A stretch of DNA of 64,000 nt from positions 62,001 through 126,000 of the forward strand of contig NZ_HE578925.1 of the NCBI RefSeq assembly GCF_000313565.1. Reading direction: 5' to 3'. The notes under the pieces were generated by a model. It made no database searches. It was not told the origin of the DNA and was given only the letters and a program-made list of their open reading frames with translations. Of this stretch, positions 6,797-32,979 are shown piece after piece. The translations under genes and the position numbers were made by a program. How positions within the stretch are numbered: position 1 is the first letter of the stretch; every line of letters begins with the position of its first letter. This stretch comes from Dielma fastidiosa (lineage in GTDB: Bacteria > Bacillota_I > Bacilli_A > Erysipelotrichales > Erysipelotrichaceae).

Positions 6797-7564
6797 GTCG
6801 AGAGTCACATGGCTCTCGTGGATTGAAATAAGCAGCGCAGAAGATACGCCTTGATTTTTTGCGGTCGAGAGTCACATGGCTCTCGTGGATTGAAATTTAT
6901 TTATTTGAAGCAGAGGTTACAACCAAAAAGGTCGAGAGTCACATGGCTCTCGTGGATTGAAATCATTTTGTATATTGGTGTTGTCATGAAAACACAGTCG
7001 AGAGTCACATGGCTCTCGTGGATTGAAATCTAACATACAGACAACGATCCATGACAATCGCTGCGTCGAGAGTCACATGGCTCTCGTGGATTGAAATTTA
7101 AGCGTATTAGCGCCGTATGCGTTCCCCCGGCGTCGAGAGTCACATGGCTCTCGTGGATTGAAATACCATTTACCTTAACATTCATGCCCTCATAATCTGT
7201 CGAGAGTCACATGGCTCTCGTGGATTGAAATTAAACTTATCAAATGGCAGTCTTATAATTGAAAGTCGAGAGTCACATGGCTCTCGTGGATTGAAATCTT
7301 TATTATGAATAAGATGCAGTCACCTGGAGGTGTCGAGAGTCACATGGCTCTCGTGGATTGAAATTTGACACATCAGATGCCCATTGATGCCCTTACAGTC
7401 GAGAGTCACATGGCTCTTGTGGATTGAAATTTCTGATTATGAAGATGTGAGTGCGTAATTGATTGTCGAGAGTCACAGGACTCTCGTGAATTCAAATTAA
7501 ATACCAGTGGACATATAATAGTCAAAGGCTGGTCGAGAGTCGTAAGACTCTTTTTAATATAATT
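6797..7564 (+). CRISPR. CRISPR array 1: 12 repeats (10 good, 2 decayed), 11 spacers
   Basis: The 33-nt repeat starts GTCGAGAGTCACATGGCTC and ends GTGGATTGAAAT, the ending and stem layout of type I-C repeats. Repeats begin at 6797, 6864, 6931, 6997, 7065, 7132, 7199, 7265, 7332, 7398, 7465 and 7532; spacers are 33-35 nt. The tenth repeat has CTCTTG instead of CTCTCG. The eleventh has ACAGGACTC in place of ACATGGCTC and a damaged 3' end, and the twelfth keeps only its 5' half. Decay at the leader-distal end fixes the orientation as plus. No cas gene lies within 19 kb, so the array must depend on the I-C operon at 26.6-32.4 kb or another locus. Confidence 0.97.
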
Positions 7565-7618
7565 GTCATATTTTATATGGAATCTAATCATGTTAAAATG
7601 ATTTCAGGAGGGAAGTAT

Positions 7619-8197
7619 ATGAACAATAATGAAATCAATGCAGCATGGTTTATTTATAAATACCATTGCAATCCAGAATCAATCAAAGTGGTTATGATAA
7701 ATGAGGTTGTCCCTGAGGATGAAAACGATGATTTTTATGTACCTAATTCATCCTATTCTCAGTCAATCATTGGATTGTTCAGCAATGCTGGAATGTTGTG
7801 TGATATGCAGGAGCTGCTTGAAAAGGGAATCTATGTATGTAATGCTGTTAAAACACCTAAAGAGCAATCTGTTATACCTATACTTCAAATAAAAGATTCA
7901 TTGGATGAGCTGGAAGCTGAACTTGCCCTTTTTGATAATTTAAAGGTTATCATGCTGATGGGAGATGTTGCACGCAAAGCTTTTAATAAGATTGCAAAAA
8001 AACAGACAGGGAAAAATGTCATACCTTCAGGGTCAACATACAAGCTGCGTCATAATGAATATTATTATCATGATATCAGGGTGATGCTCTCTTATATTTG
8101 TACAGGCGGTAATTTATTGATTGAGAAAAGCAAGGTAACTATGATTAGTGAAGATATACAGCTTATGTTGAGTATCATTGGTGATTGTCATGAGTGA
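7619..8197 (+). CDS. Uracil-DNA glycosylase superfamily-like protein
   Basis: A 192-residue cytosolic protein. An opening motif region MINEVVPEDENDDFY, a core strand KVIMLMGDVARKAF and a C-terminal IPSGSTYKLR segment recall a divergent branch of the uracil-DNA glycosylase fold seen in clostridia, but canonical UDG catalytic motifs are not obvious. Activity is therefore unproven. AGGAGGG sits 6 nt before the ATG at 7619; an upstream in-frame ATG at 7577 lacks a site and is rejected. It begins only 55 nt after the decayed end of CRISPR array 1 and overlaps the next gene by 8 nt, so the two are co-transcribed. Confidence 0.55.
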   Translation: MNNNEINAAWFIYKYHCNPESIKVVMINEVVPEDENDDFYVPNSSYSQSIIGLFSNAGMLCDMQELLEKGIYVCNAVKTPKEQSVIPILQIKDSLDELEAELALFDNLKVIMLMGDVARKAFNKIAKKQTGKNVIPSGSTYKLRHNEYYYHDIRVMLSYICTGGNLLIEKSKVTMISEDIQLMLSIIGDCHE

Positions 8198-8747
8198 AAA
8201 AGCTAAAATGATTCATGGTGAGCCTTACAATCCTATTGATCCAATGCTTGTTCTTGAGCGTGACCGTGCCAGCCGTATCTGTGCGCGTTATAATAGAAAA
8301 ACATATCATGAATACGACATGCGTAATCGATTAATGCGAAAATTAATCAATACCAATGGGAATTTCTGGGTTAAACCGCCCTTTCACTGTGACTATGGGT
8401 ATAATATTACGCTAGGACAAGATGTAATGATCAATTATGGCTGTGTATTTCTTGATGTTTGTCCGATCGTAATTAAAGACAAAACTTTAATTGGGCCAAA
8501 CGTCCAGATTTATACGGCTTGTCATGCGACCGATCCAAAACAGCGCTTAGCAGGAGTTGAGTTTGGGAAATCTGTGACTATTGGTTCTAATGTTTGGATT
8601 GGCGGCGGCAGCGTCATTTGCCCGGGTGTAGAAATTGGCGATAATACAGTAATCGGGGCAGGAAGTGTCGTAGTGAAAAGTATCCCTGCGAATGTAATGG
8701 CCTGCGGTAATCCTTGCGTAGTAAAAAAATCATTAAGTAATGACTAA
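8190..8747 (+). CDS. Maltose O-acetyltransferase-like hexapeptide-repeat enzyme
   Basis: A cytosolic acetyl-CoA-dependent sugar O-acetyltransferase of the Maa/LacA/NodL family. After an N-terminal Maa domain (residues about 5-60) comes the family signature FHCDYGYNI, then left-handed beta-helix repeats with the catalytic-loop histidine in TACHATDPK, the WIGGGSVICPGV turn and a closing IPANVMACGNPC. Its 185-residue length is standard. The ATG at 8190 has GGTGA upstream and overlaps the end of the preceding gene. A paralogue lies at 10847. The acceptor sugar is not predictable. Confidence 0.87.
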   Translation: MSEKAKMIHGEPYNPIDPMLVLERDRASRICARYNRKTYHEYDMRNRLMRKLINTNGNFWVKPPFHCDYGYNITLGQDVMINYGCVFLDVCPIVIKDKTLIGPNVQIYTACHATDPKQRLAGVEFGKSVTIGSNVWIGGGSVICPGVEIGDNTVIGAGSVVVKSIPANVMACGNPCVVKKSLSND

Positions 8748-8817: not shown

Positions 8818-8870
8818 ATAAGCAATTGTGGTTGGTAAGCGGTGTTTACAAGCATTGTTGTTGACAAAGT

Positions 8871-8907
8871 TAAATGTATCTGATAAAGTTACAGTATAAA
8901 GTGTAAC
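8871..8907 (+). promoter_or_regulatory. Promoter with Rrf2-type operator
   Basis: TTGACA (8871-8876), 18 nt, TATAAA (8895-8900). The -10 lies inside a perfect inverted repeat GTTACA-N8-TGTAAC (8888-8907), with another GTTACA copy at 8915. Such a palindrome over the -10 suits repression by the Rrf2 protein encoded two genes down the transcript. Confidence 0.7.
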
Positions 8908-8954
8908 AGGTTAAGTTACAGATAGGTAGAAATGCCTATGGAAAGGGTTAAACT

Positions 8955-10319
8955 ATGAAAAATTATACTGATGTTATCATTGGCTTTGGCAAGGGCGGAA
9001 AAACGCTGGCGGGAAAATTGGTAGCTTCAGGCCATCAGGTCGCATTGATAGAAGCATCTAAGAGGATGTATGGCGGCACTTGTATCAATGTAGCCTGTAT
9101 TCCTTCTAAATTTTTAGAGAATAATGCCCGTCTTTCAATGGCAAAAGGCGGCAGCTTTGAAGAAAAAGCAGCTTTCTACAAACAGGTTATCGCCGAAAAG
9201 AAACAGCTTATTGCGGCGCTTCGTGAAAAGAATTATCAGAAAATTGCCGGCAGTGTAGATGTGATTGACGGCCATGCATCATTTATTGACAGCCATACAA
9301 TTCAAGTTGAAAGCAGTGAAGGAACGGAAGAAATCAAAGCCGATCGTTTCTATATTAATACTGGCGCGCGCCCGTTTGTACCGCCGATTAAAGGGCTGAA
9401 AGAAAGCCGTTATGCTTATTTGAGTGAAACCATGATGGATAATGATCGGCTGCCAAAAGAATTAGTAATTATAGGCGGTGGTTATATCGGGGTTGAGTTT
9501 GCTTCTTATTATGCTAATTTTGGTTCTTCAGTAACTGTACTTTTAGATGGCAAAGACTTTTTGCCAAGGGAAGATCAAGAGGTTGTCGCATTAGTTGAAC
9601 AATCATTTGAAAAACGGGGTATAAAGCTGCTTCGTGAAGCAAAGGCTGAAGAAATTATAGATGAAGAGCAGCATGCTTTGGTTAAAGTAAATGTCAAAGG
9701 TGAAGAAATTGTTTTATCTGCTGATGCTATTTTAACCGCGACTGGCCGCCGGCCTAATGTTGAAGGATTAAGGCTTGAAAATGCCGGTGTTGAATTGACG
9801 GAAAGAAAAGCTGTAAAGGTTGATCAGACATTAAAAACAACCGCTGAAAATATTTGGGCAATGGGAGATGTTACCGGCGGTCTGCAATTTACTTATATCT
9901 CACTCGATGATTCGCGGATTGTGGCTTCTCAGCTGATGGGTGATCATCAGCGTACAACCGAAAACCGCGGCAATATACCAACCAGCATTTTTATCGATCC
10001 GCCATTCTCAAGAGTGGGACTGAGCGAAAAAGAGGCATTGGCCGCTGGTTATAAAATTAAGGCTGCCCGTATGCAGGCAATGGCAATTCCTAAAGCTAAA
10101 GTGCTGAAAAAAACGGACGGTATGCTGAAAATGATTATTAACGCTGAAACAGATCAGATTTTAGGCGCTCATTTCTTCTGTGCTGAATCACATGAATTAA
10201 TCAATCTAGTCAAGCTTGCGATGGATTCAGGTTTACCTTATCAGACACTTCGTGATAATATATATACACATCCGACAATGAGTGAGGGACTGAATGACTT
10301 ATTGTCCAATGTGCAATAA
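8955..10319 (+). CDS. RclA/Har-like flavin disulfide reductase
   Basis: A 454-residue FAD- and NAD(P)H-dependent pyridine nucleotide-disulfide oxidoreductase. The N-terminal FAD motif GFGKGGKTLAG departs from GxGxxG in the way seen in RclA and streptococcal hypothiocyanous acid reductase. The redox-active pair is C43/C48 in GGTCINVACIPSK, and the NAD(P)-binding motif GGGYIG is at 174-179. MGDVTGG and a C-terminal HPTMSE dimerisation motif complete the family pattern. A role in detoxifying hypochlorous-type or hypothiocyanous acid is inferred from the relatives, not shown. AAGGG precedes the ATG. It is co-transcribed with the Rrf2 gene 18 nt downstream. Confidence 0.82.
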   Translation: MKNYTDVIIGFGKGGKTLAGKLVASGHQVALIEASKRMYGGTCINVACIPSKFLENNARLSMAKGGSFEEKAAFYKQVIAEKKQLIAALREKNYQKIAGSVDVIDGHASFIDSHTIQVESSEGTEEIKADRFYINTGARPFVPPIKGLKESRYAYLSETMMDNDRLPKELVIIGGGYIGVEFASYYANFGSSVTVLLDGKDFLPREDQEVVALVEQSFEKRGIKLLREAKAEEIIDEEQHALVKVNVKGEEIVLSADAILTATGRRPNVEGLRLENAGVELTERKAVKVDQTLKTTAENIWAMGDVTGGLQFTYISLDDSRIVASQLMGDHQRTTENRGNIPTSIFIDPPFSRVGLSEKEALAAGYKIKAARMQAMAIPKAKVLKKTDGMLKMIINAETDQILGAHFFCAESHELINLVKLAMDSGLPYQTLRDNIYTHPTMSEGLNDLLSNVQ

Positions 10320-10337
10320 TTAAAAGGAGTGAATTGC

Positions 10338-10748
10338 ATGACAGGTGAATTAAATGTAGCCGTTCACGCACTGGTCTATCTTTATCACAAGGATACACTG
10401 CTGCCAAGTGATGGTTTGGCAGCCAATGTTTGTACTAATCCTGCACGTATCAGAAAAATCATGGCTAAAATGAAAAAAGCTGGTTTTGTTGATACCAAAG
10501 AAGGGATCAGCGGCGGTTATTTTCTGATTCGCAGCGGTGAAGAAATCACAATTAGGGATGTCTGTGAAGCACTGTCTGACAGAATTGTCAAATCGGCATG
10601 GTCAAGCGGTGATCCTTCAATGGAATGTCAGGTAGCATCTGGCATGGCTAAGGTTATGGATAATATCTATAATCAGCTGAATGAGCACTGCCTGAACATG
10701 CTTGCAGAAATTACGATTAAGGATATCAATGATCAATTATTTAATTAG
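10338..10748 (+). CDS. Rrf2 family transcriptional regulator
   Basis: A 136-residue winged-helix repressor of the Rrf2 family. The recognition region NPARIRKIMAKMKKAGFV and the wing GISGGYFLIR are clear. Cysteines stand at 32, 76, 97 and 118. They do not form the spaced iron-sulfur triad of IscR, so thiol oxidation sensing is a reasonable alternative, as inference. AAAGGAG is 8 nt before the ATG at 10338. Position behind the disulfide reductase, plus a palindrome over that operon's -10, indicate autoregulation. Confidence 0.85.
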   Translation: MTGELNVAVHALVYLYHKDTLLPSDGLAANVCTNPARIRKIMAKMKKAGFVDTKEGISGGYFLIRSGEEITIRDVCEALSDRIVKSAWSSGDPSMECQVASGMAKVMDNIYNQLNEHCLNMLAEITIKDINDQLFN

Positions 10749-10771
10749 CAGATAATAAGCAGAGTAATATG

Positions 10772-10800
10772 AAGCCGGCACTTGTTCCGGCTTTCTTTTT
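10772..10800 (+). terminator. Terminator of the reductase-Rrf2 operon
   Basis: AAGCCGG / CCGGCTT hairpin with a 9-nt loop, then TTCTTTTTC. Confidence 0.85.
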
Positions 10801-10846: not shown

Positions 10847-11419
10847 ATGAGAGAAAAAGCGAAAGCTCAGGCGGGAATGCTTTATGATGCTAATTTTGAC
10901 GAAGAATTGTTAAAAGAGCGGGCGGCGGCAAAGGAATTGCTGTATGAAATTAATCATCTGCGTCCAAGCCAGCACTCAGATAAGGATCGCCTGTATAAAA
11001 AGCTGATTGGAAAGCTTGGTGAACGTTTCTTAATTGAATCACCCTTTCATTGTGATTATGGCTATAATATCGAAATTGGTGATGATTTTTATGCAAATGT
11101 CAATCTTGTCATTCTTGATGGTGCCAAAGTTAAAATCGGCAATCATGTGTTTATTGCACCGAATGTCGGCTTATACACAGCCGGTCACCCGCTGAATATA
11201 GCAAAGCGCAATGCAGGCCTTGAATATGCCTATCCCATTACGATTGGCAATAATGTCTGGATTGGCGCGGGTGTCAGCGTATTGCCTAATGTTGTCATCG
11301 GTGATAATTGTGTAATCGGCGCCGGCAGTGTAGTGACCCATAGTATCCCGCCAAATTCATTGGCAGTGGGAAATCCATGCCGGGTGATTCGTACATTAAA
11401 TGAGGAGGAAAGCGAATGA
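10847..11419 (+). CDS. Maltose O-acetyltransferase-like enzyme, second copy
   Basis: A 190-residue paralogue of the enzyme at 8190. The N-terminal Maa domain (REKAKAQAGMLYDAN) is followed by SPFHCDYGYNIEIG, hexapeptide repeats, the catalytic histidine in YTAGHPLN, and GNNVWIGAGVSVLPNV. Divergence is high enough that the pair is not a recent duplication. Its stop overlaps the start of the NifX-like gene in an ATGA arrangement, so they are translationally coupled. Confidence 0.88.
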   Translation: MREKAKAQAGMLYDANFDEELLKERAAAKELLYEINHLRPSQHSDKDRLYKKLIGKLGERFLIESPFHCDYGYNIEIGDDFYANVNLVILDGAKVKIGNHVFIAPNVGLYTAGHPLNIAKRNAGLEYAYPITIGNNVWIGAGVSVLPNVVIGDNCVIGAGSVVTHSIPPNSLAVGNPCRVIRTLNEEESE

Positions 11420-32541: not shown

Positions 32542-32979
32542 GTCGAGAGTCGCAGGACTCTTGTGGATTGAAATCAAAATGCTCAAGCCAATCGTTGATC
32601 TTTGATTTTGTCGAGAGTCGCAGGACTCTTGTGGATTGAAATGTTTTTAAGACCATGTATAGATCCTTATCAGATAGTCGAGAGTCGCAGGACTCTTGTG
32701 GATTGAAATACGTTTTTGCTCAAAGTCATTGGTTGCATCATAGCGTCGAGAGTCGCAGGACTCTTGTGGATTGAAATACGTTTTTGCTCAAAGTCATTGG
32801 TTGCATCATAGCGTCGAGAGTCGCAGGACTCTTGTGGATTGAAATTAATTATTTTGAATAATTAATTAAAGCAAAAAGCGTCGAGAGTCGCAGGACTCTT
32901 GTGGATTGAAATTGCTGTTTAGCACTGACTGTCTACCAGCCTCATAGTCGAGAGTCGCAGGAATCTCGTGGATATTACA
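32542..32979 (+). CRISPR. CRISPR array 2: 7 repeats, 6 spacers
   Basis: The 33-nt repeat starts GTCGAGAGTCGCAGGACTC, continues TTG and ends TGGATTGAAAT. Repeats begin at 32542, 32610, 32677, 32745, 32813, 32880 and 32947; spacers are 34-35 nt. The last repeat is decayed (GGAATCTCG and a lost 3' end). Spacers 3 and 4 (32710-32744 and 32778-32812) are identical, so one repeat-spacer unit was duplicated. Spacer 5 contains a perfect 8-nt inverted repeat. Array directly downstream of cas3, same orientation. Confidence 0.97.

Follow-up and report, generated by a model that had tools for sequence, protein, structure and literature searches.

In the stretch of the Dielma fastidiosa genome analysed here (64,000 nt of contig NZ_HE578925.1, positions 62,001 to 126,000, hereafter the window), two adjacent genes on the forward strand encode a flavoprotein disulfide reductase of the RclA/MerA/Har type (rclA, positions 8955-10319, 454 amino acids (aa)) and a HypR-type regulator of the Rrf2 family (rrf2, 10338-10748, 136 aa). 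This two-gene operon had been proposed in an initial annotation of the DNA and was recovered as described. The gap between the genes is 18 bp, and each gene has a probable ribosome binding site (RBS) as judged by reading the sequence, GGAAAGGG at 8940-8947 (forward strand) for rclA and AAAAGGAG at 10322-10329 (forward strand), 8 nt upstream of the ATG at 10338, for rrf2. Translated from this ATG, the regulator contains the four cysteines counted previously (C32, C76, C97 and C118). An alternative GTG start at 10329 overlaps the likely RBS of rrf2 and would give a fifth cysteine.

The best NCBIfam models for the reductase were RclA (544 bits, cut-off 740) and the hypothiocyanous acid (HOSCN) reductase MerA (526 bits, cut-off 650). 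Its five best solved relatives include the structures 6kgy, 8ajj and 8uub, which are RclA, MerA and Har, respectively, according to the available part of PMC11107202. The residues C43 and C48, the pair H439/E444 and the lysines K13 and K16 are all present; in the same available text the two lysines are reported for Har, MerA and RclA, and as absent from glutathione reductase and thioredoxin reductase (PMC11107202). The kcat/KM values given there for RclA and Har are 9e7 to 1.2e8 per M per s. We infer that the rclA product is an RclA/MerA/Har-type flavoprotein, with reduction of HOSCN by NAD(P)H as its predicted activity.

With 86 bits against Pfam PF02082 (gathering score 30), the protein encoded by rrf2 belongs to the Rrf2 superfamily. 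Its best NCBIfam model was HypR (NF041852; 75.7 bits, E 1.3e-20), and since this score is well under the HypR cut-off, we call the protein HypR-type. Matches to the HypR model with E <= 1e-18 occurred in none of 14 control genomes and in 7 of the 395 genomes of the class, the window's own included; at E <= 1e-20 they occurred in 3 of 392 genomes of the phylum, a set that overlaps the 395 of the class, and no match in either set rose above the cut-off. In the staphylococcal locus L137, the Rrf2 protein scored 223.5 bits against the same model and is encoded beside a MerA of 793 bits. It carries cysteines 33, 99 and 142, a numbering that agrees with the published C33 and C99 of HypR, and in our alignment C32 and C97 of the window protein stand opposite C33 and C99 of L137.

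Conservation of the cysteines was compared between 25 clade rows (the window plus proteins with more than 100 bits against its Rrf2, identical rows counted once) and 19 other Rrf2 rows returned by the searches; L137 and the two mycoplasma-like loci L050 and L051 were placed in neither group. C32 was present in 24, C97 in 23, C118 in 24 and C76 in 4 of the clade rows. In the comparison set, the corresponding counts were 0 for C32, 19 for C97 and 0 for C118. From the alignment, an intersubunit disulfide between C32 and C97' as in Staphylococcus aureus HypR is the most likely prediction for the window protein.

The best-scoring promoter of the region lies upstream of rclA, with a -35 hexamer TTGACA at 8861-8866, a spacing of 17 bp and a -10 hexamer TAAAGT at 8884-8889 that is preceded by an upstream TG (forward strand; 10/12 matches for the two hexamers together). 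Promoter-like sites are no more frequent in this region than expected by chance (4 against 5.2). Two putative operators on the forward strand accompany this promoter. The first, O1 (TGTATC-TGATAAA-GTTACA, 8875-8893), lies between the -35 and the -10 and overlaps the latter; the second, O2 (TGTAAC-AGGTTAA-GTTACA, 8902-8920), has perfect arms and is located 27 bp further downstream. In the window, TGTAWC-N7-RTTACA matched three times over both strands, at two places, where 0.04 matches were expected. The conserved element TGTA(A/T)C-N7-(G/A)TTACA corresponds to TGTAA-N9-TTACA, given in the available part of PMC9218516 as the core operator of S. aureus HypR and pneumococcal SifR; O2 matches this core exactly and O1 is one base off. 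By its sequence position, the placement of the operators at the rclA promoter would suit a repressor.

Genome-wide, TGTAWC-N7-RTTACA has five exact places, O1 and O2 being two of them. Two of the other three are inside open reading frames (ORFs) of 443 and 495 aa (L126 and L130), and the third, a perfect TGTAAC-N7-GTTACA outside the window near position 29396 of contig C4 (L129), lies within what by eye resembles a spacer in another repeat array, with a GTCTAAGCACAAATACATTTTACTAGAATCACTATT-like repeat. Given these locations, and one-mismatch counts (58 and 54) little above those of the reversed control (46 and 42), we do not claim any other targets in this genome.

The initial annotation had noted a palindrome, GTTACA-N8-TGTAAC, and had placed the -10 within it. 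The palindrome itself, GTTACAGTATAAAGTGTAAC, is indeed there, exact at 8888-8907 (forward strand) and as a single copy in the window, and it arose in none of 100 dinucleotide shuffles of the window. With up to two mismatches allowed, the window gave 2 matches against 1.98 expected, and since both the palindrome and its reversed control pattern have one copy in the 3.6-Mb genome, the 6+6 match taken by itself has no significance at the scale of the genome. The proposed relation to the -10 had to be revised: TAAAGT at 8884-8889 overlaps the left end of the palindrome only, and the TATAAA within it (8895-8900) is 28 bp away from TTGACA. The palindrome consists of the right arm of O1 and the left arm of O2, and is best read, from the sequences of the related loci, as the junction of two tandem operators of the HypR/SifR type, the earlier register being wrong.

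The footprint at related loci was examined in 71 rows having an RclA-type gene with at least 300 bits against the window's reductase; among them L122 is the same gene as L050, and the proteins of L134 and L135 are identical. The signature was defined as TTGAC-N1-N8-operator with slight variation allowed in one arm, the looser arms having been picked after viewing the sites. It was found upstream of rclA in 16 of the 71 loci; 300 first-order Markov resamplings gave 0.0 per set. When strict arms were required, the 8-nt spacer was retained in 14 loci (L057 and L065 drop out), and when spacers from 0 to 24 nt were scanned with these arms, every length other than 8 nt gave 0 or 1 locus. As a consequence of the fixed 8-nt spacing, the -10 at 17 bp invariably takes its first four bases from the end of the operator spacer and its last two from the start of the right arm; in the signature loci it reads TATAAT, TATAGT, TAAAGT and similar. 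A second site 25-29 bp downstream with at least 9/12 matches was present in 9 of the 16 signature loci, a level reached by 1.6% of random sequences. In L053 and L065 the second site has 8/12 matches, which 10.6% of random sequences attain, and among the 16 loci none was detected in the three Holdemania loci, L068 and L098. Over all collected loci (850,967 bp, window excluded) the signature occurred 19 times, 15 times at rclA, three times at HypR-like genes elsewhere and once at the unrelated Rrf2 locus L013.

As far as the available flanks show, a HypR-like Rrf2 gene adjoins rclA in 17 of the 71 rows. All 12 clostridial or erysipelotrichial rows with this linkage, window included, carry the signature, 11 of them with strict arms. 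The five linked rows lacking it are the staphylococcal L137, where 23 nt separate TTGACA from the operator, the plasmid copies L134 and L135, which gave no strict operator match (a variant AGTAAC-N7-GTTACT is visible in L134), and the mycoplasma-like L050 and L051, the latter with a loose operator outside the 8-nt register. In L050 and L051 the rclA frames contain several TGA codons and the genes form an rrf2-rclA operon. The regulator gene comes first in 16 of the 17 linked rows; rclA is first in the window only.

In four signature loci (L053, L054, L060 and L065) no adjacent Rrf2 gene was seen in the flanks covered, which for L053 reach about 1 kb upstream to the contig end. Each of these four genomes has a HypR-like gene elsewhere (137-173 bits), and three of the four unlinked regulator loci have a same-strand upstream signature. 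In L140 it is located about 110 nt before the regulator; in L143 and L144 the distance is about 490 nt, and the signature precedes a rhodanese gene. The signature was absent from the regulator locus of the fourth genome (L146) and from the regulator loci L147 and L149. Away from rclA, clade regulators have as neighbours thioredoxin (L140, L121), rhodanese together with redoxin (L143) and a DsbD-redoxin fusion (L147); annotated neighbours are thioredoxin with thioredoxin reductase (L132) and a cytochrome c biogenesis (CcdA)/redoxin protein (L133). The neighbours of the clade regulator in L003 are not recognisably redox genes. Two further clade regulators, L004 and L005, are not linked to rclA and are divergent from a desulfoferrodoxin gene, with no operator-like site in the divergent region. 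Both are without C97 and L005 is also without C32, a loss of cysteines that suggests an altered sensing mode in these two proteins.

Trees were built from 47 Rrf2 rows and, by a quick method, from 54 RclA rows, the latter leaving out 15 of the 18 listed enterobacterial rows and all rows below 330 bits. In the RclA tree the window falls in a 21-row set (support 99) together with Lachnospiraceae, Holdemania, Selenomonas, Eggerthellaceae and genome G009 of its own family, and the remaining reductases of that family are placed elsewhere. Matches to the reductase were found in 9 of 60 nearby genomes at E <= 1e-60, the window's own included, and in 14 of the 395 genomes of the class at E <= 1e-100. 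Horizontal acquisition is likely.

Our reading, which we hold to be probably correct and which draws on the HypR-MerA model (PMC10715087) and the Har/RclA model (PMC11107202) as presented in the available parts of these papers, is that of a self-contained oxidant-defence operon of the HypR type, in which reduced Rrf2 would repress rclA until oxidised by hypochlorous acid (HOCl), HOSCN or similar compounds. Reduced Rrf2 dimers are predicted to occupy both O1, which lies within the -35/-10 spacer and reaches across the -10, and O2, which follows shortly after the probable start site, and in this way to block RNA polymerase, acting as a repressor rather than an activator. HOCl, HOSCN or related thiol oxidants would then oxidise the regulator, likely by the C32-C97' disulfide between subunits, and the DNA would be released. 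rclA would be expressed, its product would reduce HOSCN to thiocyanate with NAD(P)H, and with the repressor made from the same transcript, the operon could be shut off again once the thiols are reduced. The operon seems to combine a detoxifying enzyme with a thiol-sensing repressor for defence against bleach-like immune oxidants. The suggestion that an RclA/Har-type reductase stands under a redox-type Rrf2 protein has good support from the family matches, the residues of the active site, the two aligned cysteines and the footprint of the operator, the control of rclA by the regulator being a prediction.

Several observations weigh against this reading. The regulator is far under the equivalog cut-off of HypR (75.7 against 180 bits), 7 of the 14 control genomes have matches to the HypR model at E <= 0.001, and the reductase is under the RclA, MerA and PRK07251 cut-offs. 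Since C97 is found throughout the comparison set, the discriminating cysteines are C32 and C118 alone, and staphylococcal HypR does not have C118; C32 is missing, with C97 kept, from the rclA-linked Rrf2 proteins of L050 and L051. In the Rrf2 tree, the support of 93/85 with which the window groups with the clostridial proteins does not reach the starred level, and the long branch of staphylococcal HypR has no firm position. Within the 21-row set of the RclA tree, six Selenomonas reductases lack both the signature and an Rrf2 gene in the DNA covered. The operator also occurs at several other Rrf2 loci besides SifR, so that by itself it is no proof of HypR function. Finally, in the available parts of PMC7527725 and PMC6722424, rclA of Limosilactobacillus reuteri is described as modestly induced by HOCl, and the mutant as not sensitive to HOCl.

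The shared operator class and the ubiquity of C97 are also points in favour of a different sensor, one resembling SifR, that would respond to electrophiles (quinones) or to general disulfide stress mainly via C97, so that rclA would be induced by electrophiles and not by HOCl or HOSCN. SifR of Streptococcus pneumoniae is likewise an Rrf2 protein with the same operator class, and it senses quinones through C102 as described in the available part of PMC9218516. That every one of the 19 other Rrf2 rows has a cysteine at position 97 would fit such a sensor if this residue is assumed to be equivalent to C102, and thioredoxin and rhodanese among the neighbours of clade regulators are in line with a general thiol-stress theme. 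However, C32 sets 24 of the 25 clade rows apart from all 19 other Rrf2 rows, an alignment that did not include SifR itself, and an oxidant dithiol switch agrees better with the linkage to rclA, with an active site of the RclA type and with HypR as the best-matching model; we regard the SifR-like sensor as improbable. An iron-sulfur (Fe-S) cluster regulator like IscR or NsrR, which would respond to oxygen, nitric oxide or cluster status, would be in keeping with the Rrf2 membership, with weak scores against the NCBIfam models of the SUF regulator, IscR and NsrR and with the extra cysteines C76 and C118. The ligand motif of Fe-S Rrf2 regulators such as IscR and NsrR is C-X5-C-X7-C, and this spacing is absent from the Rrf2 protein, whose matches to the Fe-S models are moreover far under the cut-offs. 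The Fe-S sensor was rejected on cysteine spacing and is very unlikely. That GTTACA-N8-TGTAAC is itself bound, by one dimer centred over the start region, is the least probable proposal of all and was rejected, in spite of the exact dyad and of half-sites that would both be contacted under any model, because the footprint over related loci has the opposite polarity: the single-operator Holdemania loci L056, L058 and L059 retain only TGTAAC-N7-RTTACA, several loci have a degenerate second site or none at all, and the polarity of the published operator is that of O1 and O2.

The HypR-type reading can be set beside known systems. E. coli RclR, which controls RclABC, is an AraC-type regulator, and an Rrf2 sensor had been regarded as a different solution to the same task. 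The window resembles the E. coli system in having an RclA-family reductase (46-47% identical) and differs from it in that the candidate regulator is an Rrf2 protein and the operators are placed as for a repressor. The claim of a different solution does not stand, because an Rrf2 sensor over such a reductase has already been published: S. aureus HypR is an Rrf2 repressor that senses HOCl and HOSCN via Cys33-Cys99' and controls the HOSCN reductase MerA, as stated in the available part of PMC10715087. The window shares with HypR-MerA an Rrf2 protein and an HOSCN-reductase-type flavoprotein in one operon, the aligned C33/C99 pair and the TGTAA-N9-TTACA operator; the staphylococcal copy L137, which is above the HypR and MerA cut-offs, has the operator as well. 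In contrast to the S. aureus system, the window's Rrf2 protein is only 26% identical to the staphylococcal one and under the HypR cut-off, it carries C76 and C118 in addition but lacks a cysteine in the vicinity of C142 of HypR, the gene order is rclA-rrf2 and there are two operators, the first located 8 nt after TTGACA compared with 23 nt in L137. Pneumococcal Har belongs to the same enzyme class with C43, C48, K13 and K16, and the available text of PMC11107202, in which 'regulat' and 'Rrf2' each have 0 occurrences, names no regulator for har. Closer in sequence is a plasmid operon of Enterococcus and Carnobacterium (WP_005237713/WP_005237714), where a HypR-like Rrf2 protein (44% identical) is encoded directly beside an RclA-type reductase (46%). 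Unlike the window, this operon has rrf2 first, no strict operator match and no C118, and its identical protein accessions are found on plasmids of two genera. These are the copies L134 and L135, an Rrf2 gene with a flavin adenine dinucleotide (FAD) oxidoreductase gene, both close to a recombinase gene; the plasmid hosts are Enterococcus casseliflavus and Carnobacterium maltaromaticum.

Distinctive in the window are the operator within the promoter core, the tandem operators, the third clade cysteine and the reversed gene order. We found no description of a clostridial or erysipelotrichial rrf2-rclA operon with fixed register and tandem operators in the open-licence literature, parts of which were represented by titles and abstracts. 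Beyond the single operon, we see an even chance that many Clostridia, Erysipelotrichia and Eggerthellaceae share a HypR-type regulon for thiol stress that differs from the staphylococcal one. In such a regulon the C32/C97/C118 clade would govern, whether in cis or in trans, the genes for RclA, thioredoxin, rhodanese and redoxin/DsbD-like proteins from an operator 8 nt after the -35 that is often doubled 25-29 bp downstream. If true, it would be the answer of strict gut anaerobes to host-derived HOSCN and HOCl. The conserved operator and regulator at clostridial and erysipelotrichial rclA lead to the prediction that these genes are derepressed by thiol oxidants, and the promoter signature is precise enough to suggest members of the regulon even where the regulator is encoded elsewhere in the genome.

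Immediately around the operon, a terminator-like hairpin of the intrinsic type is located 3' of rrf2 at 10771-10794 on the forward strand; as the region has 3 hairpins of this kind where 1.7 would be expected, it is weak evidence when taken alone. Maltose-acetyltransferase-like hexapeptide genes of about 190 aa lie on both sides of rclA-rrf2 (window positions 8178-8747 and 10847-11419), both above the cut-offs of Pfam Mac and Hexapep, and the operon was perhaps inserted between duplicated neighbours. Further upstream, at 6797-7565, the window contains a CRISPR-like array of 11-12 copies of the approximately 33-nt repeat GTCGAGAGTCACATGGCTCTCGTGGATTGAAAT with a spacing of 66-68 nt and degenerate 3' copies, and a second array with the related repeat GTCGAGAGTCGCAGGACTCTTGTGGATTGAAAT and a period of 68 extends from 32542 to 32912.
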